Source: a virus
IMG/VR virus record: IMGVR_UViG_3300009124_000116
Span: 1-21,745 of that record
DNA length: 21,745 nucleotides
Reading direction: 5' to 3' (one strand)
A program made the position numbers and the translations under genes. How positions within the stretch are numbered: the first letter of the stretch is position 1; each line of letters starts with the position of its first letter. Below are positions 1,650 through 21,745 of this stretch, piece after piece. The notes under the pieces were generated by a model. That model did not search any database. It was not told the DNA's origin and saw nothing but the letters and a program-made list of their open reading frames with translations.

Positions 1650-2805
1650 GAGCGCAACATACATCAGCGGCCTAGTGGCCACTAACCCGACCTCGACGGA
1701 CAACGTCTCGGACGGCGACAACCACATCAGGCTTCTGAAGTCGACTATCAAGGCTTCTTTTCCGAACATCACCGGAGCTTTGTCATCGACCCACACCGCG
1801 ATCGACAGCGCTGTCAGCATCGCCAATGCCGCGACTTCGGCCAACACGGCTTCGGCGGTTGTTCGCCGCGACAGCAGCGGTAACTTTACCGCTGGCACAA
1901 TCACCGCAGCTTTGACAGGGAACGCCAGCACTGCGTCCGCATGGCAAACCGCTCGGACACTGACCTTTACGGGAGACGCTACTGGATCGGGGTCTGTCGA
2001 CGGGTCTGCTAACGTGAGCATTGCGTTGACGGTAGGCGACGACAGTCACAACCACATAATCGCCAACGTGGATGGGCTGCAGACTACGCTGGACGACAAA
2101 GCGAGCCTCACCGGAAGCTACGCCAATCCCACATGGATTACATCTCTGGCGGGAGCCAAGGTTACCGGAAACATAAGCGGAAACGCCGCCAACGTGACGG
2201 GAACTGTAGCTCTCGCTAACGGCGGCACAGGCGCTACTACGGCAACTGCTGCGCGATCTGCTTTAACTGCCGCCAAGTCTGGGGCGAACTCTGACATTAC
2301 TTCACTGACTGGGCTGACTACCGCTTTAAGTTTGGTTCAAGGCGGAACGGGGTCTACAACTTCAACAGGCGCTCGCACAAACATAGAGGCGGCCAAGTCT
2401 GGGGCAAACTCTGACATTACCTCGATCGGCGGTTTGACCACTGCGCTTTCTATCGCGCAGGGCGGAACGGGATCTACCACCGCTGCTGCGGCTCTGGCGG
2501 CTCTCGGAGGTATCGAAGGTGATCTAAAGCACAACTCCGCAAGCAGCCTCGGCATCAGCTGGGATATTGGAGGCACGACCTACATCCTGCAAGCAGGGAC
2601 AGGATCACTGGCAGGCAACACCACCGGGTCTATTACTTTCCCTACCTCGTACACTACTAAAGCTTTTTGCATTGCCTCCGGCGGCACATCGAGCGCCAGT
2701 AATGAAGGGGACATACATTCCTACGCTACTACAACAACAGGGGCTTCTATCATAAACTCAGCTGGATCTTCCGGAACTTACTTCTGGATTGCGCTGGGGT
2801 ATTGA
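1639..2805 (+). CDS. Tail fibre / receptor-binding protein with tandem repeats
   Basis: A 388-residue Gly/Ala/Thr/Ser-rich protein. The N-terminus has the sequence commonly found at the start of phage tail-fibre and collar proteins (SDGDNHIRLLKSTIKASFPN, residues 24-43), probably the virion attachment part. Residues 195-290 hold three copies of a 40-residue unit beginning GGTGxTT and including AAKSGANSDIT, typical of trimeric beta-rich fibre shafts. The C-terminus (about 315-388) has the pattern 'ILQAGTGS...ITFPTSY' and ends in FWIALGY, like the small C-terminal receptor-binding tips of many fibres. It should bind the host surface. Its start lies inside the holin gene, with only a weak purine stretch as SD. 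Confidence 0.85.
   Translation: MALESATYISGLVATNPTSTDNVSDGDNHIRLLKSTIKASFPNITGALSSTHTAIDSAVSIANAATSANTASAVVRRDSSGNFTAGTITAALTGNASTASAWQTARTLTFTGDATGSGSVDGSANVSIALTVGDDSHNHIIANVDGLQTTLDDKASLTGSYANPTWITSLAGAKVTGNISGNAANVTGTVALANGGTGATTATAARSALTAAKSGANSDITSLTGLTTALSLVQGGTGSTTSTGARTNIEAAKSGANSDITSIGGLTTALSIAQGGTGSTTAAAALAALGGIEGDLKHNSASSLGISWDIGGTTYILQAGTGSLAGNTTGSITFPTSYTTKAFCIASGGTSSASNEGDIHSYATTTTGASIINSAGSSGTYFWIALGY
2221..2520 (+). repeat. Tandem 120-bp coding repeats in the tail fibre gene
   Basis: Units begin at 2221, 2341 and 2461, exactly 120 bases apart, each starting GGCGGMACRGG and encoding GGTGxTT. Units 1 and 2 are complete and still close at nucleotide level (for example GCCAAGTCTGGGGC at 2272 and 2392); unit 3 is cut short after the Ala-rich part. 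The nucleotide similarity points to recent duplication or recombination rather than only protein-level convergence. Confidence 0.85.
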
Positions 2806-2808
2806 TCG

Positions 2809-4365
2809 ATGGCGTTCATACCCATCCGCAATGTTGGGCGAGGAGGCATCGTAACGGACCAAGACCCTTATGATCTAAACCTCACGCAGTTCGGTTCCGG
2901 CAACAACGTAGCCTTTGCTGACGGCCGTATAGGTAAAGCGCTTGGGTACACTGGTTACACAACTCCGACTGAGAGCCCTACACACATCCAGAGCTGGCAA
3001 GTGTCAGGAGGTTCTTCTCTGATATATGGCAGCTTAACCAAGCTGTACAAGTTTGACGGGTCCAGTCACACAAACGTATCCAAGACATCAAACACGTTCA
3101 ACTACAGCACCAGCGAAAGGTGGCAGTCTGTCCAAGCCGGTCAGGCAGTCATCATGAACAACGGGTCGGACGCACCTCAGTTTCTTCTCCCAGCAGGGTC
3201 TAGATTTGCTGATCTAACCGCATGGCCTTCCGGCATGACCACGTCATGCATAAAGCCATACAGCAGTTTTTTGGTGTGCGCAGGTTATGAGGACGGATCA
3301 GGGGCATATCCGTACACCGTCCGGTGGTCTGATGAGTTCGACCCGACAACAGTCCCCTCCGACTGGAACATTGCCAGCACGACCAATCTTGCAGGTGAAA
3401 ATTTCCTAAGCGGCCACAACGGCGTTCTTGTCGACCAAAAGACCCTCGGCGGGTCCAACATGATCTACGCCGAGCACGGCGTTTTCGCCATGGATTATAT
3501 AGGCGCACCTCTCGTTTTTAGTTTCCGAGAAGTCTTTAACGACGACGGTATTATTAACAGAGGGGCTGTTGCCAGCTTCTTCAACCGCCACCTGGTGGTG
3601 GGCCACAACGACATCTACATCCATGACGGTAACAGCAAGCAGAGCGTGGCCGACAAGAGGGTTCGACGAGAGTTTTACTCTCTCGTGGCGGACGAGCGTT
3701 CCGTGTATTGCGTGGAAGTACCGCAAAGGTCCGAAATTTGGATCTGTTTTGCGGACAACGATGCTTCTGATAGCGAAACCGCAAACAGAGCTTTGGTGTA
3801 CAACTGGACGCAAGAAGCTTGGACTTTTCAAGACATCCCAGAAACGAGAGCGATGTCCGTAAGCGACACCATCTCTTCCGTGGGCGCTTGGGATAACCAA
3901 TCGGTAACTTGGAACCAATCAAGCGACTACTGGTCGACACTTGGAGCTACTACCGACAGCTCAACGCTCAAACTTTTTGCTGCAGGAACAACCGACACTG
4001 AAATATATCAGATGCTGGACGGCTACAGTTCGGACGGCACTGCTTGCGACAGCTTTCTAGAAATAACAAAGATGGATCTGGACGAGCTAACCGGGCAAGC
4101 CACTAACACTATCAAGCGTATAAATCAGATTTTCCCTCAAATATCGGGAGACGGAACGGTCGACATCCAGCTAGGCTACAGCAACGCCCCGCAGGAAGGC
4201 GTAACGTGGATGCCTACCGTTCCTTACAACATCGGGACTGATCACAAGGTCGACATCCGATCTTCGGGGCGCTATCTAGCTATGCGAATTGAAAGTTCAG
4301 GCGCTACCGACTGGTGGATTTTGAACGGGCTTGATATAGAGGTTCTTGAGGTGGCCAAGCGATGA
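2809..4365 (+). CDS. Putative tail or neck structural protein, beta-rich, 518 residues
   Basis: Starts at the ATG three bases after the tail-fibre stop. The protein is rich in aromatic and beta-forming residues, with many GxN and WxxxxW segments, no membrane helix and no catalytic motif. The N-terminus (GGIVTDQDPYDLNL, then NVAFADGRIGKALGYT) is the usual beginning of a group of phage proteins placed near P22 gp10-like stabilisation or tail-hub proteins. Repeated short strands such as VYCVEVPQRSEIWICFAD and RALVYNWTQEAWTFQDIP suggest a beta-propeller-like fold. Position after the fibre and before the ejected-protein block fits a tail or neck component. A role as a second adhesin cannot be excluded. 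Confidence 0.68.
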   Translation: MAFIPIRNVGRGGIVTDQDPYDLNLTQFGSGNNVAFADGRIGKALGYTGYTTPTESPTHIQSWQVSGGSSLIYGSLTKLYKFDGSSHTNVSKTSNTFNYSTSERWQSVQAGQAVIMNNGSDAPQFLLPAGSRFADLTAWPSGMTTSCIKPYSSFLVCAGYEDGSGAYPYTVRWSDEFDPTTVPSDWNIASTTNLAGENFLSGHNGVLVDQKTLGGSNMIYAEHGVFAMDYIGAPLVFSFREVFNDDGIINRGAVASFFNRHLVVGHNDIYIHDGNSKQSVADKRVRREFYSLVADERSVYCVEVPQRSEIWICFADNDASDSETANRALVYNWTQEAWTFQDIPETRAMSVSDTISSVGAWDNQSVTWNQSSDYWSTLGATTDSSTLKLFAAGTTDTEIYQMLDGYSSDGTACDSFLEITKMDLDELTGQATNTIKRINQIFPQISGDGTVDIQLGYSNAPQEGVTWMPTVPYNIGTDHKVDIRSSGRYLAMRIESSGATDWWILNGLDIEVLEVAKR

Positions 4366-10118: not shown

Positions 10119-10271
10119 ATGCCGGGTAAAGGTTTATACGCAAACATCCACGCTAAGCGTAAGCGCATTGCCGCTGGGAGCAAAGAGCGTATGAGGAAGC
10201 CGGGATCTAAAGGGGCTCCTAAAGCTTCGGCTTTTAAAAAGGCCGCCAAAACAGCTAAGCGGAAAAAGTAG
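10119..10271 (+). CDS. Conserved small Lys/Arg-rich phage protein, 50 residues
   Basis: A very basic protein that starts at ATG 10119, begins MPGKGLYANIHAKRKRIAAG, and ends in a Lys/Ala tail (AAKTAKRKK). Nearly the same sequence (GLYANIHAKRKRIAAGS...MRKPG) recurs in many unrelated marine podoviruses, cyanophages and other tailed phages, in my recollection, and its function is not established. The charge suggests binding to DNA or RNA, perhaps condensing DNA in the head, and it is encoded among virion genes. It starts 3 bases after the stop of the previous gene. The tail portion resembles histone H1-like C-termini, and this may reflect composition only. Confidence 0.82.
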   Translation: MPGKGLYANIHAKRKRIAAGSKERMRKPGSKGAPKASAFKKAAKTAKRKK

Positions 10272-12149: not shown

Positions 12150-13487
12150 TTACTTTTTAACGAACTCAAGGAGAGCGTCTTGGCTTTCCTTCTTCCCCTG
12201 CAGAACTTCGAGCACCAGAGCGTCCATGCTGTTCTTGGCTGTGACGTGAACCACGCGGACAGGCTTGTCCTGACCCTGCCTGTAAAGCCTCGCGTTGAAC
12301 TGCTGATACAGCTCGAGGGACCAGCTGAGACCGAACCACACAATAAGAGCTCCGCCCCTTTGAAGGTTGAGGCCGTGACCGGCACTGGCCGGGTGAGCCA
12401 GTAGGACTTCAATCTTCCCGGCGTTCCAGTCGTCGATCGTTTTTGGGTTTTTATCCAGAACCACGGCGTTGGGCAGCGCCTTCTGTATGCGTTCGAGATC
12501 TGATCGGAAGTTATACGCTACAAGGACAGGTTCGCCTGCCGTGTCGATGATCTCCCGCAGAGCATCTAATTTGGCGTCGTGAACCACGCGGTAGCTGTCG
12601 TCTTCGTCGTACACTGCGCCATTGCATATCTGCAGAAGCTTGTTCACCTTGGCCGCTGCGTTGGCCGCAGTCACTAATCCGTCGTCCCATTCGATTATGA
12701 AGTGATGTTTCATCTCCTCATAAGCTCGAAGCGCACCGGCTGGCATGCTTACTTCGATCACGCTGTCTACTCGTTCCGGCAGGTCGATGTAGTCCTCCGC
12801 TGACATCCGCAGAACCACGTCCGCCACTGCCTTGTACAGTGCCTCAACCCGGTGAGGCTTGACCTCATACTGCCTCCACTGAGGGTTTCCAACTTGGTGG
12901 CAGTAGCTTTCGAGGAACTTCGATCGCGTGTTGCCTAGCCGTTTACCTTTGTCGAGCAGGTATATCTGCGGCCACAACTCCAGCAGGTTGTTGGGGGCCG
13001 GTGTTCCCGTGAGCTGAACCATGCGGTCAACGTGGCCGAGGATCCGACGCATGGACTTCCAGCGTTTTGCCCCGTGGTTCTTGAACGAGCTGCTCTCGTC
13101 TATCACTACGCAGTCATAAGGCCAGCTTTGGCCGAGCTCGTCGCAGATCCACTGCACGTTCTCACGGTTGATGATGTGGATCTGGGTGTTCTCGCTGAGA
13201 GCTGCAGCTCGTTTGGAAGCTGGCAGCCCTGAAAGGACAGTGAAGCTGAGATCTTTGAGGTGGTCCCACAGACTAATCTCTGTCGGCCATGTGTGCTGAG
13301 CCACGCGGAGAGGTGCTATGACAAGGGCTTTGCGTATGTCGCCTGCGGACAGAAGATCCTGTAAGGCTGTGAGGGTTGAGACTGTCTTGCCCAGTCCCAT
13401 GTCGATCCACAGGGCAGCTGAAGGGTTGTCCTTGATGAACTCAACTGCTCTGCGCTGGTACTCGTGCAGGTTGTCCCTAGTTAGCAC
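12150..13487 (-). CDS. SNF2/DEAD-type superfamily 2 helicase
   Basis: A 445-residue two-domain SF2 helicase or translocase, acting on DNA with ATP. Motif I is DMGLGKT (29-35), motif II is DESSSFKN (130-137; DESS in place of DEAH), motif III is LTGTPAPN (159-166), and the second RecA domain carries SAGHGLNLQRGG and motif VI QQFNARLYRQGQ with its arginine finger. This is the compact SNF2-like helicase usual in phages with DUF2800/DUF2815/PolA/VRR-NUC modules, and it probably aids replication restart or recombination. The start is GTG at 13487 with AAGGAG a few bases upstream; it overlaps the nuclease stop. No accessory DNA-binding domain is present. Confidence 0.93.
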   Translation of the reverse strand: MLTRDNLHEYQRRAVEFIKDNPSAALWIDMGLGKTVSTLTALQDLLSAGDIRKALVIAPLRVAQHTWPTEISLWDHLKDLSFTVLSGLPASKRAAALSENTQIHIINRENVQWICDELGQSWPYDCVVIDESSSFKNHGAKRWKSMRRILGHVDRMVQLTGTPAPNNLLELWPQIYLLDKGKRLGNTRSKFLESYCHQVGNPQWRQYEVKPHRVEALYKAVADVVLRMSAEDYIDLPERVDSVIEVSMPAGALRAYEEMKHHFIIEWDDGLVTAANAAAKVNKLLQICNGAVYDEDDSYRVVHDAKLDALREIIDTAGEPVLVAYNFRSDLERIQKALPNAVVLDKNPKTIDDWNAGKIEVLLAHPASAGHGLNLQRGGALIVWFGLSWSLELYQQFNARLYRQGQDKPVRVVHVTAKNSMDALVLEVLQGKKESQDALLEFVKK

Positions 13488-13729
13488 AGCAGCTCCTTCC
13501 CTCTATCAATGTCGTCAATGACGTGAACTTCGAAGCCAGCGTCTTTAAGCTTTTTGTGTATGTGGTTTTGCAGCTTTGTGGGGTGCTTTCCGGGTGCTTT
13601 AAACTCGACCAGCATGATCTCCCCTTGGCGGAAGTAGATGCGATCGGGTACGCCCTTCTGGCTTGGGCTGACCCACTTGAAAGACACCCAGCCTTTAGAC
13701 TTGGCAAAGTCGGTGACCTTTTTCTCAAT
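13481..13729 (-). CDS. VRR-NUC domain nuclease, non-canonical start
   Basis: A small PD-(D/E)xK nuclease. The core motifs are GVPDRIYF (metal-binding Asp), then MLVEFKAPG (E-x-K, catalytic) and LQNHIHKKLKDAGFEVHVID, as in stand-alone phage VRR-NUC proteins of about 85-100 residues that cut branched DNA. No ATG, GTG or TTG precedes the domain. The coordinates use ATT at 13727-13729, which has GAGAGG 5 bases upstream and gives 82 residues. A GTA at 13742-13744 overlaps the polymerase TAA and would give 87 residues beginning REATIEKK, which looks like the natural N-terminus of the family. The gene lies between polymerase and helicase and probably depends on translational coupling. Confidence 0.85.
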   Translation of the reverse strand: MEKKVTDFAKSKGWVSFKWVSPSQKGVPDRIYFRQGEIMLVEFKAPGKHPTKLQNHIHKKLKDAGFEVHVIDDIDRGKELLC

Positions 13730-13740
13730 GGTCGCCTCTC

Positions 13741-15633
13741 TTACTTTCGGTATCTTTCGGCCTCGTACGCCTCGGCCTCGATCGGGAGCCCCTTGGCCCA
13801 CACTGGTCTCTCGCACAGCAGTTTCTCGAACTCTTCGAGACTGCCTCTTATCGTCGGTACGTCGCACACCACCTCGTCGTGAACTGTGAGAACTACTCGG
13901 TAGCCGTTCTCTTCCAAACGCACAACCGCTTCGGCTAAGAGATCCCGAGCTATGGCCTGCGTGATCGACTGCACGATCGAGCCGCCGTAAAGATTCACAT
14001 CTCCCCACCGGTGGGTGTGGTTGTTCATTCCTTGGCAAGTCAGCGACTGTCTTCCAAAGTCGTCATTGCTTATCTGGGCTTGGGGGAACGAAATCAGTCG
14101 TCCGCTGGGGAGCTCGAAGACAAGGTCTTCCCCCTCGATGCGGAAAGATCCGCAGCGAACGTCCTGCTTTGTCTTGTAGTGAACCGCTCTGACAGCGGCC
14201 TTCTGACAGTTCCACCAGAGAGACACTACGTTGGCGTTAGCTTCTCGCCAGTCGTCTCGGATCTGCAGTGCCTCCTCCTCGCTCACCTCACTTCCGTATG
14301 CCTGTGCCATCTTTTGGAAAGCTTTAACACCGCCCTGATAGCCAAGAGCTAGTGTTGCCACCTTGCCCAAGAAGCGCTGCTCTGAGTTCACGCGATCGTA
14401 ATTGACCCCGTACATGCGACTGGCTGTCGACTTGTATATGTCGAGACCCTGCACAAAGGCGTCGAGCGCTGCCTGTTCTCCAGCCATCCATGCTAGAACC
14501 CTAGCCTCGATCGAGGCAAAGTCCCCGGCGATCAGCCGGTGGCCTGAGCTGGGAATGAGCATGCCGCGCAGACAGCTCGACAAAGCCTCCATGGGTTCGT
14601 GGCCCAGAGCTTTCGGATCTTGCAGAGGCATAGCCCTTATGACCGGCAGCGGGTCTACGGTTGGCCGTGGGAGGTTTTGAGGTTGGAAGTGTTTACCTGC
14701 CCACCTTCCAGTGGCAGCCCCGTGGTAAATAAGAACTCCATGAGCTCTCTCGTCGCTGCCGAGGCAGGACAACATGGCCTTATACTTCTTAGTGCTGGAC
14801 TTCGAAAGAGCCTGACGGATCTCGAGAAACTCTTTGACGATTGAAGGGCAGCTGCTGTCCGACAAAGCCTTCTCGACAGCCGCCTTGTCGTAGCTGTCCA
14901 TCTGATATCCCCGAGCTTCTATCCACTTCAGGCTCTTGGCCCGACTAGCGGTACTGGCCAGGTCGCCCTTAGTTATCTGCTTCACTCTCTCGTTGCTCTC
15001 GCGCTCTACCTGCTCGATGATTGCCAGAGCATGGTGGATGCTGGCTTTGTCCAGACGGACGCCGCGCCAGTTAATCCTCTGGTCGATCTCAAACATCTTC
15101 TGCTCAAAATCGTTCAAGGGGCGCAGTCTCTGGCGGATAGTCCGCTCGGTTCTAACGTCCTGCAGGCAGTAGTCGTAAAGCTCCTGTAGAAGCTCAGGGT
15201 CTCTGTTCCGCTTGCTGCGGTAAGGCTTGCAGAGCCTTTGAATAAGGAGCTTGCCCCGCTTGCTCTTTGCCTGATCCTCACTCAAACCCAGTGCGGCCCC
15301 GCAAGATCCCAATGCTCGAGGGTATGCTTGGGCGCAGGCGAGGGCTGCGGTGTCGTTCCACTGGCTGAGCCTGGTTGCTGGCCATTTCAGGCAGCGGATC
15401 CAGACGGCCATTTCAAAGAATGAGTTCCACGCCCAGATCTCCGCTCCGTCAGCAATCAGATCGAACAAGCGTTTCGGCGCAGGCATATCCGGGGTCCACA
15501 GCTCAGGGTCTTCGTCGTCGACAGCCCAAGCTAGACACAGTGCCTCTGTAGTCGGATGCTCTGCGTAAGCGAAAGCACCTGCCGATCGGATGTCACACTC
15601 GCTGTAAGTTTCGAAGTCGATAGAAATCCGCAT
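13741..15633 (-). CDS. Family A DNA polymerase with 3'-5' exonuclease
   Basis: A 630-residue replicative polymerase. The proofreading domain has Exo I DFETYS (6-11), Exo II WNSFFE (69-74) and Exo III YCLQDV (155-160). The polymerase domain has the template-binding stretch TGRWAGKHFQPQNLPR (308-323), motif A DFASIEAR (371-378), motif B RFLGKVATLALGYQGG (420-435) and motif C VHDEV (584-588), so all catalytic carboxylates (Asp371, Asp586) are present. There is no 5'-3' exonuclease domain. Counting from Lys424, the position equivalent to E. coli Pol I Phe762 is Leu428. The start ATG at 15633 directly follows an intrinsic terminator and has no adjacent SD, which suggests low or controlled expression. 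It lies downstream of SSB and upstream of VRR-NUC. Confidence 0.96.
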   Translation of the reverse strand: MRISIDFETYSECDIRSAGAFAYAEHPTTEALCLAWAVDDEDPELWTPDMPAPKRLFDLIADGAEIWAWNSFFEMAVWIRCLKWPATRLSQWNDTAALACAQAYPRALGSCGAALGLSEDQAKSKRGKLLIQRLCKPYRSKRNRDPELLQELYDYCLQDVRTERTIRQRLRPLNDFEQKMFEIDQRINWRGVRLDKASIHHALAIIEQVERESNERVKQITKGDLASTASRAKSLKWIEARGYQMDSYDKAAVEKALSDSSCPSIVKEFLEIRQALSKSSTKKYKAMLSCLGSDERAHGVLIYHGAATGRWAGKHFQPQNLPRPTVDPLPVIRAMPLQDPKALGHEPMEALSSCLRGMLIPSSGHRLIAGDFASIEARVLAWMAGEQAALDAFVQGLDIYKSTASRMYGVNYDRVNSEQRFLGKVATLALGYQGGVKAFQKMAQAYGSEVSEEEALQIRDDWREANANVVSLWWNCQKAAVRAVHYKTKQDVRCGSFRIEGEDLVFELPSGRLISFPQAQISNDDFGRQSLTCQGMNNHTHRWGDVNLYGGSIVQSITQAIARDLLAEAVVRLEENGYRVVLTVHDEVVCDVPTIRGSLEEFEKLLCERPVWAKGLPIEAEAYEAERYRK

Positions 15634-15635
15634 AC

Positions 15636-15664
15636 AAAAAAAGTGGGGGCGCTATGACCCCCAC
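15636..15664 (-). terminator. Intrinsic terminator between SSB and DNA polymerase genes
   Basis: Read on the minus strand: GTGGGGG (15664-15658), loop TCATAGCG, CCCCCAC (15649-15643), then seven T (15642-15636). The 7-bp stem is perfect and almost all G-C, followed directly by the U-tract, so this is a textbook Rho-independent terminator. It begins 7 bases after the SSB stop and ends 2 bases before the polymerase ATG. A further GGGGG just upstream allows an alternative pairing register. Downstream genes have no obvious separate promoter, so they probably depend on read-through or antitermination. Confidence 0.88.
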
Positions 15665-15671
15665 CCCCTAC

Positions 15672-16220
15672 TTAGAGAAAATCGTCGTCGGCGGCGTCTG
15701 CGTCCTGCTCGTCGCTTATGTCATCGAACAGCTTGTCTACGCTAGGTGCTCCAGAGCCGAAGCTGTCTCCGTCCTTGACGAACTGCAGGCCAATAAGGTT
15801 GCAGTTAATCCGCTTACCAAACTGGTTGTCCTGAGCCCAGAAGCTGATTGCCGCGTTGACGTAGCAGCCTGAGTACGGACGGCCGTCCTCTTCCACGAGC
15901 GGGGTCTTGTCCCGATCAAGCACTTGAGGTCGCTTGAGGGTCGAGCAGCTGATGAAGACCGCGTTTTCGTAGCCGTCGTACGCTTTCTCTTCGCCGTCCC
16001 CCAAGCAGGTCTTGAGACCCTTTGGCGGCTTGCCGTTAAAAGCCTCGTCAGCCTTGGCCTTGACCGCCTTCTTTAGCTTGGCGATCTGATCGGCGTGGGT
16101 GTCCTTGTCCAGCAGCAGGTTGCAGCTGTACTTCGCCTTCTGCCCTTCCATGTACGCCTTCGGCGTAAAGATTTGGGCAAAAGACAGACGAACATTCTTC
16201 ACTGTAATGACTTCACTCAT
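15672..16220 (-). CDS. DUF2815 single-stranded DNA-binding protein
   Basis: A 182-residue protein of the DUF2815 family, related to T7 gp2.5-type SSBs. The N-terminus (VKNVRLSFAQIFTPKAYMEG), the central KYSCNLLLDKD and the GRPYSGCYVNAAISFWAQDN segment are family features. The acidic C-terminal tail (DADAADDDFL) is the usual SSB tail for contacting polymerase and helicase partners. It coats ssDNA during replication and recombination. Its ATG overlaps the stop of the DUF2800 gene (ATGA), and a strong terminator follows 7 bases after its own stop, which should make it one of the two most transcribed genes of the leftward operon. Confidence 0.93.
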   Translation of the reverse strand: MSEVITVKNVRLSFAQIFTPKAYMEGQKAKYSCNLLLDKDTHADQIAKLKKAVKAKADEAFNGKPPKGLKTCLGDGEEKAYDGYENAVFISCSTLKRPQVLDRDKTPLVEEDGRPYSGCYVNAAISFWAQDNQFGKRINCNLIGLQFVKDGDSFGSGAPSVDKLFDDISDEQDADAADDDFL

Positions 16221-17341
16221 TGGTCACTTTCCTTGTTGAAATAGGATTTCAGCGCAGGTCGCTTGTCACTCTCTGGAGCAAGCGTTGGCTTTCCATCCGG
16301 TTTGTCAATGAGATCGACGATCTCACCGCTCGCCTCACGACCGAGAGACTTCTCGGCCTGTGCGGGAGACTTGAGCTTGGACACAAAGGCGTCGTGTCCT
16401 AGCAATTTCGTTAGGCGTTCCTCGGCTGCGTCTTCGTCAGACCAGCGGCGCATAGATCGCCCTTCCACTACCTTCCAGCCGGGAATAACACCTCCTGCCG
16501 CTAGTAGATCTGTGGCGTGTTTCTTTACCGCGTCCGCCCAGCTGCTGATCTGGTCCAGCTTGCTGACAACTACCGCCAACTGGTCCGCTGTAAGCGTGTG
16601 GTGGTCTACGGTCTTGTCTACCTCTTCGAGATTGTCGAAAGCTCCGAAAGCCAACTCGAAGTTTTCTCGAGCAAGCGCTCCGCAGGTCGCCTTAGCTCTG
16701 CACCAGCGGCACTGTTTGTCGCCTGGGTGGAGAGGGGCGTCGTCGGTCATAGCAAGCTCGGCGGCTGGCTTAGCCACCTCCAGAGCCCACTCCAGCAGTG
16801 TCTTTACCGACATCTCGCACTGGCTGACATGGTCTAGTCGGGGCTGCACGATGTTGAGCGTCACGTCCTTGACTTGATAGTCGAAGCCGAAATCTTTGAT
16901 GGCCCCGATCGCGTACAGCATGAGCTGTTCGTTGTTCTCGGCGTGAACCTTGACGCCGGATCCAAACTTGGCGTCGATGACATGGACGTGGCCTGCGTTG
17001 AAAACGAGGCAATCCGCGGTCCCGAACCCTCGAGGGGCTATGTGTTCGTAGCTGACACGCTGCTCGTAAAATTTTATGCCGCGCTGCATGTTCACAAAGT
17101 CGACGTAATACTGGACGGCCTCAGCCATCTCGTCGCTAACTATGAACTCCCCGACACGCTTGCCGATGAACTCTCGAGCTACACGCTCTTCTCTCAAACA
17201 GCGCTCAGACAAGTCATGGCATGCTGTGCCTTCGGCCGCGAAGCGGCTGTACTCATCTGGGATGTCTTTTTCCATGCGGATCGAACCCGGGCAGGCGATC
17301 CATCTGTGAGCCTTTGAGGCTCCGAGCACTGCGTGTGCCAT
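16217..17341 (-). CDS. DUF2800 Cas4/RecB-like nuclease
   Basis: A 374-residue PD-(D/E)xK nuclease of the DUF2800 type. The start is ATG at 17341, which has AGAGGAG six bases upstream; an in-frame TTG at 17347 would have no spacing. His42, then GTAD (Asp110), IDAK (Asp123, Lys125) and Gln139/Tyr143 form the RecB-like catalytic site. Cys17 together with Cys211, Cys214 and Cys220 (CRWCRAKATC) match the four cysteines that hold an iron-sulfur cluster in AddB and Cas4. The likely role is 5' or 3' resection of DNA ends for recombination-dependent replication with the SSB encoded next to it. It is the first gene of the leftward operon. Confidence 0.92.
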   Translation of the reverse strand: MAHAVLGASKAHRWIACPGSIRMEKDIPDEYSRFAAEGTACHDLSERCLREERVAREFIGKRVGEFIVSDEMAEAVQYYVDFVNMQRGIKFYEQRVSYEHIAPRGFGTADCLVFNAGHVHVIDAKFGSGVKVHAENNEQLMLYAIGAIKDFGFDYQVKDVTLNIVQPRLDHVSQCEMSVKTLLEWALEVAKPAAELAMTDDAPLHPGDKQCRWCRAKATCGALARENFELAFGAFDNLEEVDKTVDHHTLTADQLAVVVSKLDQISSWADAVKKHATDLLAAGGVIPGWKVVEGRSMRRWSDEDAAEERLTKLLGHDAFVSKLKSPAQAEKSLGREASGEIVDLIDKPDGKPTLAPESDKRPALKSYFNKESDQ

Positions 17342-17359
17342 CCACAACTCCTCTGACTT

Positions 17360-17430: not shown

Positions 17431-17449
17431 CTTAAACAGGAGGTTTAAG
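17431..17449 (+). promoter_or_regulatory. SD-in-loop hairpin at the start of the repressor gene
   Basis: CTTAAAC (17431-17437) and GTTTAAG (17443-17449) are perfect complements, with the SD bases AGGAG as the loop, and the first base of the GTG start codon closes the stem. The SD AGGAGG sits 5 bases before the GTG. The palindrome could be an RNA hairpin that presents or hides the ribosome site, or a 19-bp DNA operator. Confidence 0.6.
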
Positions 17450-17682
17450 TGGAAGATCGTGAACAAGTTAGGAGGAAGCTGGAGCAGGTGTCTGCCTTAG
17501 TCGCTTCTTCCTCGTGGAATAGATTGGCTGGGAAGCTGGACGTTACCCGTCAAGCAATTAACAAGTGGATTGTCGCAGGCGAAGTGCCAGCTGCTCGAGC
17601 TTGCCAGATCGAGCTGCTCACTGAGGGCGCTGTGACTTGGAAGGAGCTTTGCCCAAAGCTGGTTCGTAACACTGAGATTTGA
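17449..17682 (+). CDS. Cro/YdaS-like helix-turn-helix repressor
   Basis: A 77-residue DNA-binding protein. The helix-turn-helix is at about residues 25-45 (NRLAGKLDVTRQAINKWIVA), followed by the GEVPAARACQIELLTEGAVT stretch that is characteristic of Cro and YdaS-type regulators (…VPxxRAxxIExxTxGxVT…). It should bind as a dimer to the dyads in the region just upstream and control both divergent promoters and its own. GTG start with AGGAGG placed in a hairpin loop. It is co-transcribed with the primase-helicase gene, which follows 11 bases after its stop. No CI-type partner repressor is encoded in the window, so whether this belongs to a true lysogeny switch is open. Confidence 0.87.
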   Translation: MEDREQVRRKLEQVSALVASSSWNRLAGKLDVTRQAINKWIVAGEVPAARACQIELLTEGAVTWKELCPKLVRNTEI

Positions 17683-17693
17683 GGAGAAGGACA

Positions 17694-19949
17694 TTGTTGA
17701 AGGATTACGGGCATAAGCTTGTAGCCAACGGCTACGACATCGTGCCAATCAAGAAGGGTCGCAAAGCCCCCTCGCTTTCCAACTGGCAGAACCTGCAAGC
17801 CACCTCGGAAGACGTGGACAAGTGGTTAGGAAACGGTCACGCCGACGGGGGCGTGGGTGTGCTGTGCCGCCGAACGCTCGCCGTGGACATCGACTGCCAC
17901 GACAAGAAGCTGAACTACGAGCTCATTCACTGGATGCGCGACAACGTAGGCGACGCTCCGATCAGGGTCGGCCGAAAGCCTAAGTGCATTATGCCTTACC
18001 GAGCGGAGACGCCTTTCGGGAAGATCCGATCGACAGAGTACGAGGACCAGGAGGGCAGCCGCCACGCGGTTGAGGTTCTGGCAAACGGTCAGCAGTTCGT
18101 GGCTTACGGTATCCACCCAGACACAAACAGAGAATACAGCTGGGTCGGAGGGGTAGGTATAGCTGACGTTCCTTACAAGGATCTGCCGACGCTATCTGAA
18201 GAACAGGCTCGAGCACTGGTTGCTTTCTTCGAGAAGAGGGCTGAGGAACGCGGCTGGGAGGCTGTGAGGCGGGGAGGCCAGACAGCCGCCAGCGGGGCTG
18301 TAGACCCAGACGACCTGTCTAATTTGAGAGCTAAACTCGATGTCGATCGTGAACAGATCGAGAAGTGGCTCGAGGCGATCGACCCTGACGAGCATCACGA
18401 CGACTGGGTCAAGGTCGGAATGGCGCTGCACCACCAGTTCGACGGAAGCGAAGAAGGTCTCGAGATCTGGGACGAGTGGTCGAGCGGCGGCAGCAAATAC
18501 AGTGAAGGTGTGTGCGCTAAGCGCTGGGACAGCTTCGACAGCCACAGCAAGGTTCCTGTCACCGCGGCGTACCTGCGCCGTCAGAGCGTTGAGGTTGTGA
18601 GCGAGGAAGTCAAAGACGAGAAGCTTCCTGCCATGCTCGAAAACTGGGCTTTCGTTCAGGTCGAGGGGTCCGCCAGAGTTATCCGCGAAGACATAAACAC
18701 AGGCTCGATCGTGCTCTACAAGATCGAAGATCTCAAGAAAGAGCACAAGAACTGCGAGATCCTCGATGTGTCGAGCCGTAAGCCAAAGATGATCAACCTC
18801 GTGGATGTGTGGCTGCAGAGCGATAAACGTCGCACTTATGCGGCCGGTCTCACGTTCGCTCCAGACGGAGAGGTTTTGGCCAAGTACAACCTGTGGCGCG
18901 GCTGGACTTACGAGCCAAGGGAGGGGGACGTTCGACCTTGGGTTGATTTCGTGACCGAGGTTGTGGCGAGCGGCAACGCCGACCACGCCAACTACATCAT
19001 CGCCTGGTGCGCTCAAATCATTCAGCAGCCTATGACCAAGATTGGCGTGGGCCTTGTGCTTCGAGGCTTGAAGGGGACAGGCAAGACCAAGTTCGGCGAG
19101 CTGCTCGGCGGTCTAGTAAAAGCCCACCACAAGATAGTGAGCCGTGCTGAGCACGTTACCGGACACTTCAACCGCCACCTCGAGGACTGTCTGGTTCTGC
19201 AGGCAGACGAAGCCTACTGGGCTGGGGCGAAGTCGAACGAAGGGGCTCTGAAGGATCTGCTGACCAACTCAGAACTCACGATCGAGCGAAAGGGCGTAGA
19301 CGCCTACACCGCGCCCAACTTCACCCGCGTACTGTTCACCTCGAATGAGGACTGGGTGGTCCCTGCCAGCCTAGATGAACGCAGGTTCGCTGTGTTCGAC
19401 ATTAGCTCGGTTCACAAACAGGACAGTCAGTACTTTGCTGCGCTCGACCGCTGGTATCACACTGGAGGGGCCAACTCTTTGATGCACTACCTGCAGAACT
19501 TCGACCTGTCGAAGATCAACGTCCGCATCGCTCCGCAGACAGAGGCTTTGACAGAGCAGAAGCTTGAAAGCCTGAGCTCGGTCGAGGGGTGGGTGTTTAA
19601 CTGCCTGATGGCTGGCGAGATCAGAGAGCACCGAGTGGCTGGCGATCGGCTTGAGTGGGGCGATCTGGTCAGCAAGGCTCAGCTGTACGACATCTACGTC
19701 TCATCAATCCGCAACCGCTACGAGCAGCCGGTCAAGGAAGTCCATTTCTGGCGAGCCCTGAGAGGCTGTGAGGGTCTGCTGCTGGATGAGAAGCAGAAGC
19801 GAGAGGGTGACAGCCGGATCCGCTGTGTGCAGCTGGCCGACCTGACCGATGCGCGTAGAGGCTTTGAAGTCGCGGCAGGGATGTCGATCGACTGGCCAGA
19901 TGCTGGCGAGGTTGACCCGCTCGACCCAGCTAACTGGGATGATGAGTAA
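17694..19949 (+). CDS. PriPol primase-polymerase fused to DUF5906 (D5/SF3-like) helicase
   Basis: A 751-residue bifunctional replication protein. The TTG at 17694 is chosen because AGGAGAAGG (17682-17690) is correctly spaced for it and the product begins LKDYGHKLVANGYDIVPI like other PriPols; a TTG at 17679 lies within the upstream gene. Residues 1-180 are the bifunctional primase-polymerase domain with catalytic acids in AVDIDCHD (Asp65, Asp67). A PriCT-2-like domain follows (HHDDWVKVGMALHHQF). The helicase has Walker A GLKGTGKT (458-465), Walker B LVLQADEA, the sensor LFTSNEDW and the arginine finger LDERRF. It should unwind DNA and make primers at the replication fork. The gene ends just before the DnaA-box region. 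Confidence 0.94.
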   Translation: MLKDYGHKLVANGYDIVPIKKGRKAPSLSNWQNLQATSEDVDKWLGNGHADGGVGVLCRRTLAVDIDCHDKKLNYELIHWMRDNVGDAPIRVGRKPKCIMPYRAETPFGKIRSTEYEDQEGSRHAVEVLANGQQFVAYGIHPDTNREYSWVGGVGIADVPYKDLPTLSEEQARALVAFFEKRAEERGWEAVRRGGQTAASGAVDPDDLSNLRAKLDVDREQIEKWLEAIDPDEHHDDWVKVGMALHHQFDGSEEGLEIWDEWSSGGSKYSEGVCAKRWDSFDSHSKVPVTAAYLRRQSVEVVSEEVKDEKLPAMLENWAFVQVEGSARVIREDINTGSIVLYKIEDLKKEHKNCEILDVSSRKPKMINLVDVWLQSDKRRTYAAGLTFAPDGEVLAKYNLWRGWTYEPREGDVRPWVDFVTEVVASGNADHANYIIAWCAQIIQQPMTKIGVGLVLRGLKGTGKTKFGELLGGLVKAHHKIVSRAEHVTGHFNRHLEDCLVLQADEAYWAGAKSNEGALKDLLTNSELTIERKGVDAYTAPNFTRVLFTSNEDWVVPASLDERRFAVFDISSVHKQDSQYFAALDRWYHTGGANSLMHYLQNFDLSKINVRIAPQTEALTEQKLESLSSVEGWVFNCLMAGEIREHRVAGDRLEWGDLVSKAQLYDIYVSSIRNRYEQPVKEVHFWRALRGCEGLLLDEKQKREGDSRIRCVQLADLTDARRGFEVAAGMSIDWPDAGEVDPLDPANWDDE

Positions 19950-19954
19950 CTTTT

Positions 19955-19963
19955 TTATCCACA
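19955..19963 (+). promoter_or_regulatory. DnaA box 1
   Basis: TTATCCACA, identical to the strongest E. coli oriC box (R1). It lies 6 bases after the primase-helicase stop and follows a run of T. The host initiator DnaA could bind here. Confidence 0.65.
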
Positions 19964-19966
19964 GGA

Positions 19967-19986
19967 TGACAACTAGGGGTTGCTTA
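19967..19986. promoter_or_regulatory. Second copy of the operator-like element
   Basis: TGACAACTAGGGGTTGCTTA matches 16 of 20 positions with TGACAACTATCGGTTGTTGA at 17361-17380, including an unbroken TGACAACTA and a GGTTG. The ACAAC/GTTGC arms keep most of the dyad. It lies in the only sizeable gap of the rightward operon and overlaps DnaA box 2 by 3 bases. Confidence 0.55.
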
Positions 19987-20012
19987 TCCACACAAGGCGT
20001 GGTACTTACAGT
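19980..20012 (+). promoter_or_regulatory. Possible promoter for the small-gene cluster
   Basis: TTGCTT (19980-19985) is a fair -35. A 17-base spacer leads to TACTTA, which is poor; TACAGT at 20007-20012 is a better -10 but at 21 bases. The second operator copy and DnaA box 2 both cover the -35. I am not certain that this is a promoter. Confidence 0.3.
19984..19992 (+). promoter_or_regulatory. DnaA box 2
   Basis: A second perfect TTATCCACA in the same orientation, 29 bases after the first. Together the two boxes occupy the 82-base gap between the primase-helicase gene and the small-gene cluster, and suggest either a phage origin or DnaA control of the downstream promoter. Confidence 0.65.
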
Positions 20013-20031
20013 CATCAAATGAGGAAAGGAA

Positions 20032-20265
20032 ATGCACATGACTAATTATCTGACCACCCGGCTCGGCGAAAAGTTTACCAACGCCGAGTTCAAAGCAATC
20101 CCGCGCAACAGCGACGGAGACATCATTGACCTGTTCGATGCTTATTGCTTCCTGACTAACGCTCAGCGCGAGAAGCTGACCGCAGACGATCAGAGCCGCT
20201 GCGAAGACTACGACGAAGAAATGCGCTACTTGGCTGAGGAAGCTTTTGAAGAGTTCGGTTTCTGA
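20032..20265 (+). CDS. Small acidic protein, 77 residues, unknown
   Basis: ATG at 20032 with GAGGAAAGGA immediately upstream; an in-frame ATG at 20038 is about equally well spaced, so the first two residues are uncertain. The protein is soluble, begins TNYLTTRLGEKFTNAEFKAI and ends in a strongly acidic helix (EDYDEEMRYLAEEAFEEFGF). It is not recognised. Small acidic proteins at the head of an early phage transcript often bind host proteins or mimic DNA, but nothing here shows that directly. It is the first gene after the DnaA-box region. Confidence 0.68.
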   Translation: MHMTNYLTTRLGEKFTNAEFKAIPRNSDGDIIDLFDAYCFLTNAQREKLTADDQSRCEDYDEEMRYLAEEAFEEFGF

Positions 20266-20272
20266 GTTTTAC

Positions 20273-20304
20273 GGGGGCGGTCTTATTAGAAGCTGGCCGC
20301 TCCC
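20273..20304 (+). repeat. Intergenic hairpin, 10-bp stem
   Basis: GGGGGCGGTC (20273-20282) pairs with GGCCGCTCCC (20295-20304), including two G-U pairs, around a 12-base loop. No T-run follows, so it is not an ordinary intrinsic terminator. It lies between two small genes and ends shortly before the strong SD GAGGAGG of the next gene. An mRNA stability or translation-control element is possible. Confidence 0.45.
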
Positions 20305-20327
20305 ACCCAGCCAAGAGGAGGTTCCAA

Positions 20328-20726
20328 ATGAAGATGTACAAGATCACCACGGTTTACGGAAAAACTTACTGGGCTCGAACACAGGCTGACGCCAAGACGA
20401 TATCTAAGAGGGTCGGATCTAAATGGGACCAAATCGATGTCCCCACCGACCACGCGGGTCTGTGCGACTTTCTCAACCAGGAGGTTGGCAGCGTCGTCAA
20501 GCAGGACGAACCTGCCGCACCTGCGGTAGAGCCTGTGGCTGCTGTAGTAAGCGCAGACATCGAACGTAAGTTTGCGCCTGCTAAATCCGAGAGTGAAGAG
20601 CGCTTCGAGCGTTCGATTTCGATCGACGAGATCCTTGAGGAAGCCGACTACCACCAAGCCAGCTCGATCCAGTACCGCGCCACCCAGCGCATGGTCGACA
20701 TCAAAGTGAGGGAGAACACCCAATGA
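20328..20726 (+). CDS. Unknown phage protein, 132 residues
   Basis: ATG preceded by AGAGGAGG at normal spacing. The N-terminal half looks globular (VYGKTYWARTQADAKTISKR, then KWDQIDVPTDHAGLCDFLNQ). A Pro/Ala-rich linker (EPAAPAVEPVAA) follows, then a charged helical C-terminus (SESEERFERSISIDEILEEA). No known domain or catalytic motif can be identified. The order of folded head, disordered linker and helical tail suggests a protein-protein adaptor. It is coupled to the next gene by an ATGA overlap and lies in the early cluster with the aaRS-like gene. Confidence 0.72.
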   Translation: MKMYKITTVYGKTYWARTQADAKTISKRVGSKWDQIDVPTDHAGLCDFLNQEVGSVVKQDEPAAPAVEPVAAVVSADIERKFAPAKSESEERFERSISIDEILEEADYHQASSIQYRATQRMVDIKVRENTQ

Positions 20727-20965
20727 AGCTATCACCTAAGATCCGCGCCGCTCTCGACGCAGAGCGCACGATCGCCATCGAGGTCTATCAGGACCACGGT
20801 TACGACAGCCGCGCCGACTACATCGAGGCGCTGGTCGAGGAGTTCGACGAGGAGCTGGTCGTGGCCGCCATGGCGGTGCTGCCTCCCAGCGAGGACTTCG
20901 ATGGGCTTGTTAGCGAGCTCGAGGACTGGCACGTCGTGAACGGACAGTTCGGGGTAGGGGCGTGA
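20723..20965 (+). CDS. Unknown small acidic protein, 80 residues
   Basis: Starts at the ATG overlapping the upstream stop (ATGA). The product begins with a short basic helix (MKLSPKIRAALDAER) and continues with acidic helices (YIEALVEEFDEELVVAAMAV, SELEDWHVVNGQFGVGA). No membrane segment or enzymatic motif is visible and I do not recognise the family. Its stop overlaps the GTG of the next gene (GTGA), so four consecutive genes here are translationally linked. Confidence 0.7.
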   Translation: MKLSPKIRAALDAERTIAIEVYQDHGYDSRADYIEALVEEFDEELVVAAMAVLPPSEDFDGLVSELEDWHVVNGQFGVGA

Positions 20966-21096
20966 AGCCTCCACCAGACAGCTGGCTGCGCGAGCACAAC
21001 ACTCGCGTGGCCGAACACATCCACCGCTGCAACGTGGAGCGGTTTCTCAGCAATGAATTTGGAGGAGAAGACAATGCGCTTGGAGACGAGTGGTGA
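20962..21096 (+). CDS. Very small protein, 44 residues, unknown
   Basis: A GTG overlapping the preceding TGA opens a 44-residue frame that ends at TGA 21094-21096. It begins KPPPDSWLREHNTRVAEHIH and ends GGEDNALGDEW. The frame fits exactly between neighbours, with GTGA overlaps on both sides, which supports translation. A purine-rich stretch at 21061-21070 in its 3' part looks like a Shine-Dalgarno site for something further downstream. It resembles the short linking genes common in phage early operons; no function can be proposed. Confidence 0.55.
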   Translation: MKPPPDSWLREHNTRVAEHIHRCNVERFLSNEFGGEDNALGDEW

Positions 21097-21745
21097 GTGA
21101 GGCGTTATTTCAGCACGGGGGTCTTCGGTTCTGGCACGAACGTGAAATACGGCTGCGAGAGCATGTAATAGCCGAACTAGCTGCGGCAGTGCGCGACACC
21201 TTGACCCGCGAATGGGGTATGTATCGCGTTGAGGGGCCGATCCTGCACCCGCGAGATCAAATCTCGCCGTCCTATGATGACGGAGACATTTTCGTCACTA
21301 ATCACAAGGGCTGGTGCCTACGGGCGGAAACCACGCCTTCGAGCTATGCGTATGCACGCTGGATGATGAAGCGGGGCGCGGGGTTGCCGTTGTGCATTTG
21401 GCAGGCGGGTATTTCGTCGCGGCGCGAGACAAACGACGGGGCCAGCGCGGCCAAACTGCGGTTCAATTCGTTTTGGCAGATTGAGTTTCAGTGCATTGTG
21501 CCTCTGGCAGAGAAGAGGCGCGACGGGGCGTTGCGCGGCAAGTTAATTGAAGCTTGTCGCCCCGTGGTTGAGCGGGTGACGATGGCGGACACACGGGTTG
21601 TTGATAGCGACCGATTACCTTCCTATTCCGAAAGCACGCGGGACATTGAGGTAAGGCTCGCAAACGATGGGAGGGAGGTAGCGTCTTGTTCGATCCGCAC
21701 GGACTTTTCTCCCGACACCCGCGTGGTTGAAATGGCCTTTGGGCT
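21093..21745 (+). CDS. Class II aminoacyl-tRNA synthetase-like protein, glycyl type (partial, runs off window)
   Basis: An open frame of 217 codons with no stop before the window ends. GTG at 21093 has GGAG (21082-21085) seven bases upstream and overlaps the previous stop; GTG at 21090 is the alternative. The N-terminus (GLRFWHEREIRLREHVIAEL, residues 10-29) and the motif 1-like YRVEGPIL (Pro49) fit a class II core. Next come LRAETTPSS (76-84), comparable to the RPETAQG glycine-site segment of GlyRS, and motif 2: ISSRRETND (Arg110, Glu112), then LRFNSFWQIEFQ (122-133), parallel to the F-T-Q-A-E run of GlyRS. The last residues (TRVVEMAFG) match the start of motif 3 (VIEPSFG in GlyRS). It may charge tRNA or be a paralogue with another acceptor. 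No tRNA gene is visible nearby. Confidence 0.78.
   Translation, partial: MSEALFQHGGLRFWHEREIRLREHVIAELAAAVRDTLTREWGMYRVEGPILHPRDQISPSYDDGDIFVTNHKGWCLRAETTPSSYAYARWMMKRGAGLPLCIWQAGISSRRETNDGASAAKLRFNSFWQIEFQCIVPLAEKRRDGALRGKLIEACRPVVERVTMADTRVVDSDRLPSYSESTRDIEVRLANDGREVASCSIRTDFSPDTRVVEMAFG

Follow-up and report, generated by a model that had tools for sequence, protein, structure and literature searches.

Why would a phage carry an aminoacyl-tRNA synthetase that appears to consist of a catalytic core, and what would such an enzyme charge? The question arises at the right edge of a linear IMG/VR virus record of 21,745 bases, which was analysed in full and is called the window here. An earlier note, made from the letters alone, had recognised at this edge the motifs of a class II core resembling glycyl-tRNA synthetase (GlyRS) and had proposed, among other roles, that it could recode translation or charge a phage tRNA.

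The window gene and its full-length counterpart

The frame starts with GTG at 21093, its last full codon ends at 21743, and it stays open at the right edge. The window is linear and 21,745 bases long, so it is the end of the contig, not a mutation, that truncates the frame. The gene, its motifs and the small frame preceding it are located as follows:

20962-21096, plus strand: small upstream ORF of 44 amino acids, starting with GTG and overlapping the start of the synthetase with its stop (GTGA)
21093-21743, plus strand: mini-GlyRS-like class II synthetase core, residues 1-217 of about 231, delimited by the ORF, its homologues and the full-length copy in contig L002
21216-21251, plus strand: motif 1 region, GMYRVEGPILHP, residues 42-53
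21321-21344, plus strand: RAETTPSS, residues 77-84
21402-21491, plus strand: motif 2 and its loop, QAGISSRRE...FWQIEFQ, residues 104-133
21606-21707, plus strand: lid and RTDF region, SDRLPSYSESTRDIE...REVASCSIRTDF, residues 172-205, aligned with GlyRS
21723-21743, plus strand: start of motif 3, VVEMAFG, residues 211-217; LDR and the C-terminus lie beyond the window

The class II motifs stand in the order that had been described, from the motif 1 proline through RAETTPSS and motif 2 to the start of motif 3. The missing end is supplied by phage contig L002, which holds a second copy of the gene (2437-3132) encoding 231 amino acids with 98% identity to the window protein; there, the sequence continues as LDRLVTIAGLGETK and a stop, the C-terminus of the complete protein being VVEMAFGLDRLVTIAGLGETK. 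The protein stops 11 residues past the motif 3 arginine, without an HGTP anticodon-binding domain. The motif 3 arginine thus exists in the full-length copy, and no anticodon-binding or further domain follows it. By way of L002, this answers the check that the earlier note had suggested for the sequence past 21745, and bears out its view of a catalytic core lacking the insertion domains of cellular enzymes. Across the family, protein length ranges from 218 to 284 amino acids.

DNA similarity between the window and L002 (97%) is confined to the stretch from about 21082 to the contig end, plus one short distant stretch, so the two represent different phage backgrounds with a near-identical gene. 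Of the codons that differ between the two gene copies, 17 are synonymous and 3 non-synonymous, a ratio that points to purifying selection in the window clade and rules out a degenerate pseudogene. Together with homologues in 19 phage records and GlyRS-model matches for all 77 aligned members, this confirms a real gene, beyond chance.

The GTGA overlap at 21093-21096 suggests translational coupling of the 44-residue ORF with the synthetase; the L002 gene starts with the same overlap, after an ORF unrelated to that of the window. The window gene adjoins phage replication genes, namely a Prim-Pol primase-helicase, a family A DNA polymerase, an Enc34-type ssDNA-binding protein, a DUF2800 protein and an SNF2 helicase, and a protein with a DnaA C-terminal domain is encoded 3' of the synthetase in L002 and L004. 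The replication genes of the window form two diverging blocks (12150-17347, minus strand; 17449-21745, plus strand), with a small, repressor-like ORF at 17449-17682 and a likely divergent promoter region around 17.4 kb. Elsewhere in the window, positions 10119-10271 encode a very basic protein of 50 amino acids (MPGKGLYANIHAKRKRIAAGS...), the DNA of which is kept at 88-90% in L002 and L007, phages otherwise unlike that of the window. A phage contig of the window's clade, L017, carries a type II hammerhead ribozyme on the minus strand (3720-3784, 43 bits).

Relationship to alpha2 glycyl-tRNA synthetases

The window protein alone matched PF00587 with an E value of 3.6e-4 and 21.1 bits, under the cut-off of 29.3, and the case therefore rests on the family profile. 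The window protein had no match in PHROG, and the best single-sequence PDB match was pyrrolysyl-tRNA synthetase (PylRS, 2e-3). The profile of 77 members matched alpha2 GlyRS best (3e-17), followed by PylRS, SerRS and ProRS at about 1e-6 to 1e-5 or weaker, and every aligned member matched a GlyRS model, the top one with 3e-18. In the profile alignments, RPETTPSSY pairs with RPETAQGIF of GlyRS, FYQLEFQ with EFEQMEME, and YSEKTLDIE..KWMEV.SISKRTDF with YSDRTVDIE..PWGEL.GVANRTDF.

The AF2 model of the full-length L002 protein, for which rows from annotated phage records were left out of the input, reached a mean pLDDT of 95.2 and a pTM of 0.92 and showed the class II antiparallel fold. Its closest folds were the GlyRS of M. 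tuberculosis (Z 23.6, rmsd 2.5 A) and Thermus (Z 23.1, 2.4 A) over 223 residues. Matches to alpha2 GlyRS ranged from Z 22.4 to 23.6, with 221-224 residues aligned at 17-20% identity; ProRS and a Bradyrhizobium glycine:[carrier protein] ligase came next, with Z around 22. As the Z values differ so little, the family was assigned on the basis of sequence. The proposal of a GlyRS-like core had hinged on a class II profile match and a class II antiparallel sheet, and both were found, with GlyRS coming first in profile and fold.

The active site is conserved throughout the family. In motif 1, where VEGPILHP forms residues 46-53, P49 and P53 are each kept in 73 of 77 members. E79 aligns with E188 of Thermus GlyRS within the RPET element and is glutamate in 76/77 members, the exception (L095) being garbled at that point. 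Motif 2 and its loop (SRRE...FWQIEFQ, residues 108-133) contain the invariant residues R110, E112, Q129 and E131; R110 aligns with the motif 2 arginine of Thermus GlyRS and E131, kept in 77/77, with its E239. The lid and RTDF region pairs with DKLSHYS..TVDIEY..W.E...NRTDF of GlyRS, and P176, Y178, D184, E195, S200, R202 and D204 are invariant in all 77 members. In motif 3, E213 is likewise kept in 77/77, as are the motif 2 arginine R110 and the motif 3 arginine R220, and the alanine at position 215 also occurs in M. tuberculosis GlyRS (VIEPAAGLTR).

Alpha2 GlyRS binds the amino group of glycine with three glutamates (Glu245/296/522 in the human enzyme; PMC4938167), a conserved triad stated for alpha2 GlyRS elsewhere as well (PMC12208437). 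By alignment, E79, E131 and E213 are the counterparts of these three residues. Since equivalents of the first two are also present in other class IIa enzymes, the assignment of glycine rests mainly on E213 and the RTDF region. On this basis, glycine is the likely substrate.

The family thus shares with the alpha2 GlyRS of bacteria, archaea and eukaryotes (class IIa) the fold (Z 23.6), motifs 1-3, the glutamate triad, the RTDF arginine and the Y..T.DIE lid. It differs from them in size (231 amino acids vs about 440-690), in the lack of the insertion and the HGTP domain, and in the lid, where the histidine of [AS]HY[AS] is replaced. The L002 protein scored 25.9 bits against the NCBIfam equivalog NF003211, under its 312-bit cut-off. 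As the anticodon-binding domain is absent and the equivalog score falls short, the protein is not to be filed as a GlyRS. Sequence and model support the reading that the window gene encodes a catalytically intact-looking minimal class II core of the alpha2-GlyRS type, with predicted activity, and we propose that the family works like the catalytic core of GlyRS.

Phage relatives, tRNA genes and the acceptor

Homologues are encoded in 19 annotated phage records (E values down to 1e-46), all with genomes of 311-636 kb; these are Caulobacter and Brevundimonas phages, Sinorhizobium phage Phosso, Xanthomonas phage XbC2 and two uncultured phages. Where an annotation exists, it reads 'hypothetical protein', 'aminoacyl-tRNA synthetase', 'serine-tRNA synthetase' or 'RNA synthetase class II'. 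Profile scans extended the family to 95 or more relatives on viral contigs. Bacterial genomes contributed at least 81, for the most part on chromosomes of Rhizobium, Devosia, Phenylobacterium, Mesorhizobium and Paraburkholderia. The family has no model of its own in Pfam, PHROG or NCBIfam, and we found no description of it in the open-access literature on phage and Caulobacter-phage synthetases, carrier-protein ligases and Gly leader peptides. Synthetases of huge phages likewise occur in jumbo phages with many tRNAs and were described as related to those of their hosts (Al-Shayeb et al. 2020, PMC7162821); unlike them, the present family is core-only, absent from PHROGs and found in a small phage too.

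We lean, by a modest degree, towards a minimal alpha2-GlyRS-type enzyme that activates glycine and charges tRNA via the acceptor end, with a host tRNA as substrate in the window phage. The enzyme would bind ATP together with an amino acid of very small size, glycine being the most likely one, form the aminoacyl-adenylate and transfer the aminoacyl group to the 3' end of a tRNA. Because it lacks an anticodon-binding domain, it would recognise the tRNA at its acceptor end at most. The window phage shows no tRNA gene, which points to a host tRNA, and glycylation would be kept or raised during infection, independently of the unrelated alpha2beta2 GlyRS that we infer for the host. The computed basis of this reading consists of the fold, the family, the conserved active site, purifying selection, the absence of other domains and the translation-gene neighbourhood in jumbo phages.

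The same lack of an anticodon-binding or other tRNA-binding domain in the full-length protein would also suit an enzyme that passes glycine or another small amino acid to a protein, be it a carrier protein or not, to a lipid or to a small molecule, as glycine:[carrier protein] ligases or EpmA do. The amino acid:[carrier protein] ligase Bll0957 of Bradyrhizobium, derived from SerRS, is likewise a stand-alone class II core, activates glycine and matches the predicted fold with Z 21.6, and no tRNA gene occurs in the window or the 32 kb L002 contig. Yet the carrier-protein-ligase model PRK07080 was matched by only one of nine members (E 0.12), and a PF00550 carrier protein was absent from 12/14 carrier phage records and more than 100 kb away in the other two, leaving none near the phage gene. 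As the neighbourhood in phages is moreover related to tRNA and translation, we consider a non-tRNA acceptor unlikely, and tRNA the more probable one.

What this neighbourhood holds differs among the phages. As the earlier note had stated for the window, the scan found no tRNA gene there, nor in the L002 contig, although both may be fragments; none lies near the synthetase at the window, L002 and Caulobacter-phage loci. The genomes of jumbo relatives contain as many as 68 tRNAs, and in 17 of 78 distinct phage loci the synthetase follows a tRNA at a distance of 500 nt or less, vs 5.3 expected at random positions, counting loci as independent and ignoring kinship. Which tRNA is nearest depends on the clade (CUA, Ser, Gly, Glu, Asn, Cys), so a constant partner does not emerge. 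Recurrent neighbours include peptidyl-tRNA hydrolase Pth2 (12 loci) and CysRS (9 loci); the two largest conserved-neighbour clusters were antisense shadows of the synthetase gene and were discarded. An altered identity of tRNA-Gly in carrier phages was rejected, as these tRNAs nearly always keep U73.

A dedicated phage tRNA, in one clade an amber suppressor reading chosen stop codons, is the partner suggested by nine jumbo-phage loci in which the sole tRNA of the fetched locus has the anticodon CUA and discriminator G73 and lies 52-1874 nt upstream of the synthetase:

L043, L047, L048, L052, L054, L057, L062 and L065, upstream of the synthetase: G73 tRNA(CUA), one clade with shared neighbours
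L010 (Phosso, 171983-172058), upstream of the synthetase: G73 tRNA(CUA)

A tRNA also lies within 20 nt upstream in XbC2 (Ser GCU), L032/L037 (Gly CCC), L072 (Gly GCC) and LR745206 (divergent). PylRS offers a precedent for a class II core paired with a tRNA(CUA), and was the top single-sequence PDB match; however, its profile support is about 11 orders of magnitude weaker than that of GlyRS, and the window phage shows no tRNA. Eight of the nine CUA loci belong to one clade, the cognate gene being present only there and in Phosso, and the identity of adjacent tRNAs varies elsewhere. We further examined three jumbo genomes (two complete records and 300 kb of a third), reading each stop as sense. 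TAG remained the stop of 54/553 and 90/557 ORFs, and ORF-restricted alignments across TAG gave no consistent residue by read-through homology in the three genomes; the unrestricted comparison was dominated by antisense shadow frames and was not used. Global amber recoding in the jumbo relatives was therefore rejected, although suppression at single sites may occur, and the recoding role proposed in the earlier note finds no support in its global form, even where amber tRNAs are carried. Another of its suggestions, that the enzyme charges a phage tRNA, is plausible where jumbo relatives are concerned, but no tRNA gene was found for it in the window or the L002 contig. For the family, we regard a dedicated phage-tRNA partner as distinctly improbable.

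Two further observations concern the tRNAs themselves. The genomes of Phosso (446731-446806), G016 (330698-330776) and G023 (293258-293333) each encode another tRNA(CUA) at a different site, this one with A73; two distinct amber-suppressor tRNAs thus occur in one phage, even though TAG serves as an ordinary stop. The divergent tRNA of L012 (LR745206.1, 7908-7981), just upstream of the synthetase, has an atypical D arm and an anticodon loop CUUGCAA read as UGC; it was missed by ARAGORN and scored above the Rfam cut-off (31 vs 29 bits).

Chromosomal copies and an Arg-Gly leader

In a quick tree, the phage rows were more diverse, most bacterial copies formed one clade nested among them, and phage contig L068 sat beside this clade. 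With midpoint rooting, this makes transfer from phage to bacteria the likely direction. Each of the six carrier genomes checked encodes GlyQ, which belongs to the unrelated alpha2beta2 GlyRS; a full alpha2 GlyRS, or any copy above the NF003211 cut-off, is absent from all of them. The family is therefore not a recent paralogue of the resident enzyme.

Almost all bacterial copies, in Rhizobiales (including Rhizobium and Devosia), Caulobacterales (including Phenylobacterium) and Burkholderiales, are preceded by a short leader ORF:

L096-L171, about 75-180 nt upstream of the synthetase: leader ORFs (e.g. L129, 5879-5994; L098, 5881-5997; L162, upstream of 5998)

The leader ends in GRGLRV.., RRGMGVFG or NQRGFGGT, and its CGA-GGT (Arg-Gly) codons are kept in every intact case; one Rhizobium leader has TGA at the Arg codon and hence a premature stop. 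In Alphaproteobacteria, the ORF is followed by sequence pairing with its end (a conserved distal hairpin), and Paraburkholderia shows a GC hairpin and a run of T at the corresponding place. Consensus folding gave a conserved helix of nine pairs, in which covariation support is weak because a single pair shows double changes. An Rfam scan of the Rhizobium loci found 6S RNA only, leaving the leader without an Rfam family. The arrangement makes the leader a candidate for ribosome-mediated attenuation, which would respond to Gly- or Arg-tRNA.

Such a leader would fit an enzyme that counters a host defence or stress depleting or damaging glycyl- or arginyl-tRNA, the cellular copies being induced when ribosomes stall at the Arg-Gly codons. 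The presence of the leader and distal hairpin before almost all chromosomal copies, and of GlyQ without full alpha2 GlyRS in the six genomes, are in line with this. On the other hand, none of 71 members matched PADLOC, which does not cover counter-defence, the phage upstream regions inspected showed no such leader, and the attenuation mechanism is itself conjectural, making this the least probable of the readings considered. A broader reading, possible if on the whole doubtful, is an undescribed, phage-born family of minimal glycine activators free of a tRNA reader. Its acceptor would be unusual, either a dedicated or divergent tRNA of the phage or a target other than tRNA, and Alphaproteobacteria would have taken the gene from phages and placed it under a new Arg-Gly leader attenuator.

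If the favoured proposal of a minimal tRNA-charging GlyRS is true, the window gene and its relatives would be among the smallest natural GlyRS-type synthetases, would allow a direct test of whether a class IIa catalytic core is sufficient for charging tRNA, and would represent a portable enzyme for glycylation, one not related to the alpha2beta2 GlyRS found in the bacteria checked. The family merits a name that could be given to the many genes currently annotated as hypothetical, serine-tRNA synthetase or RNA synthetase class II. It also points to an unrecognised leader-controlled gene in rhizobia, the leader of which is a candidate new attenuator.
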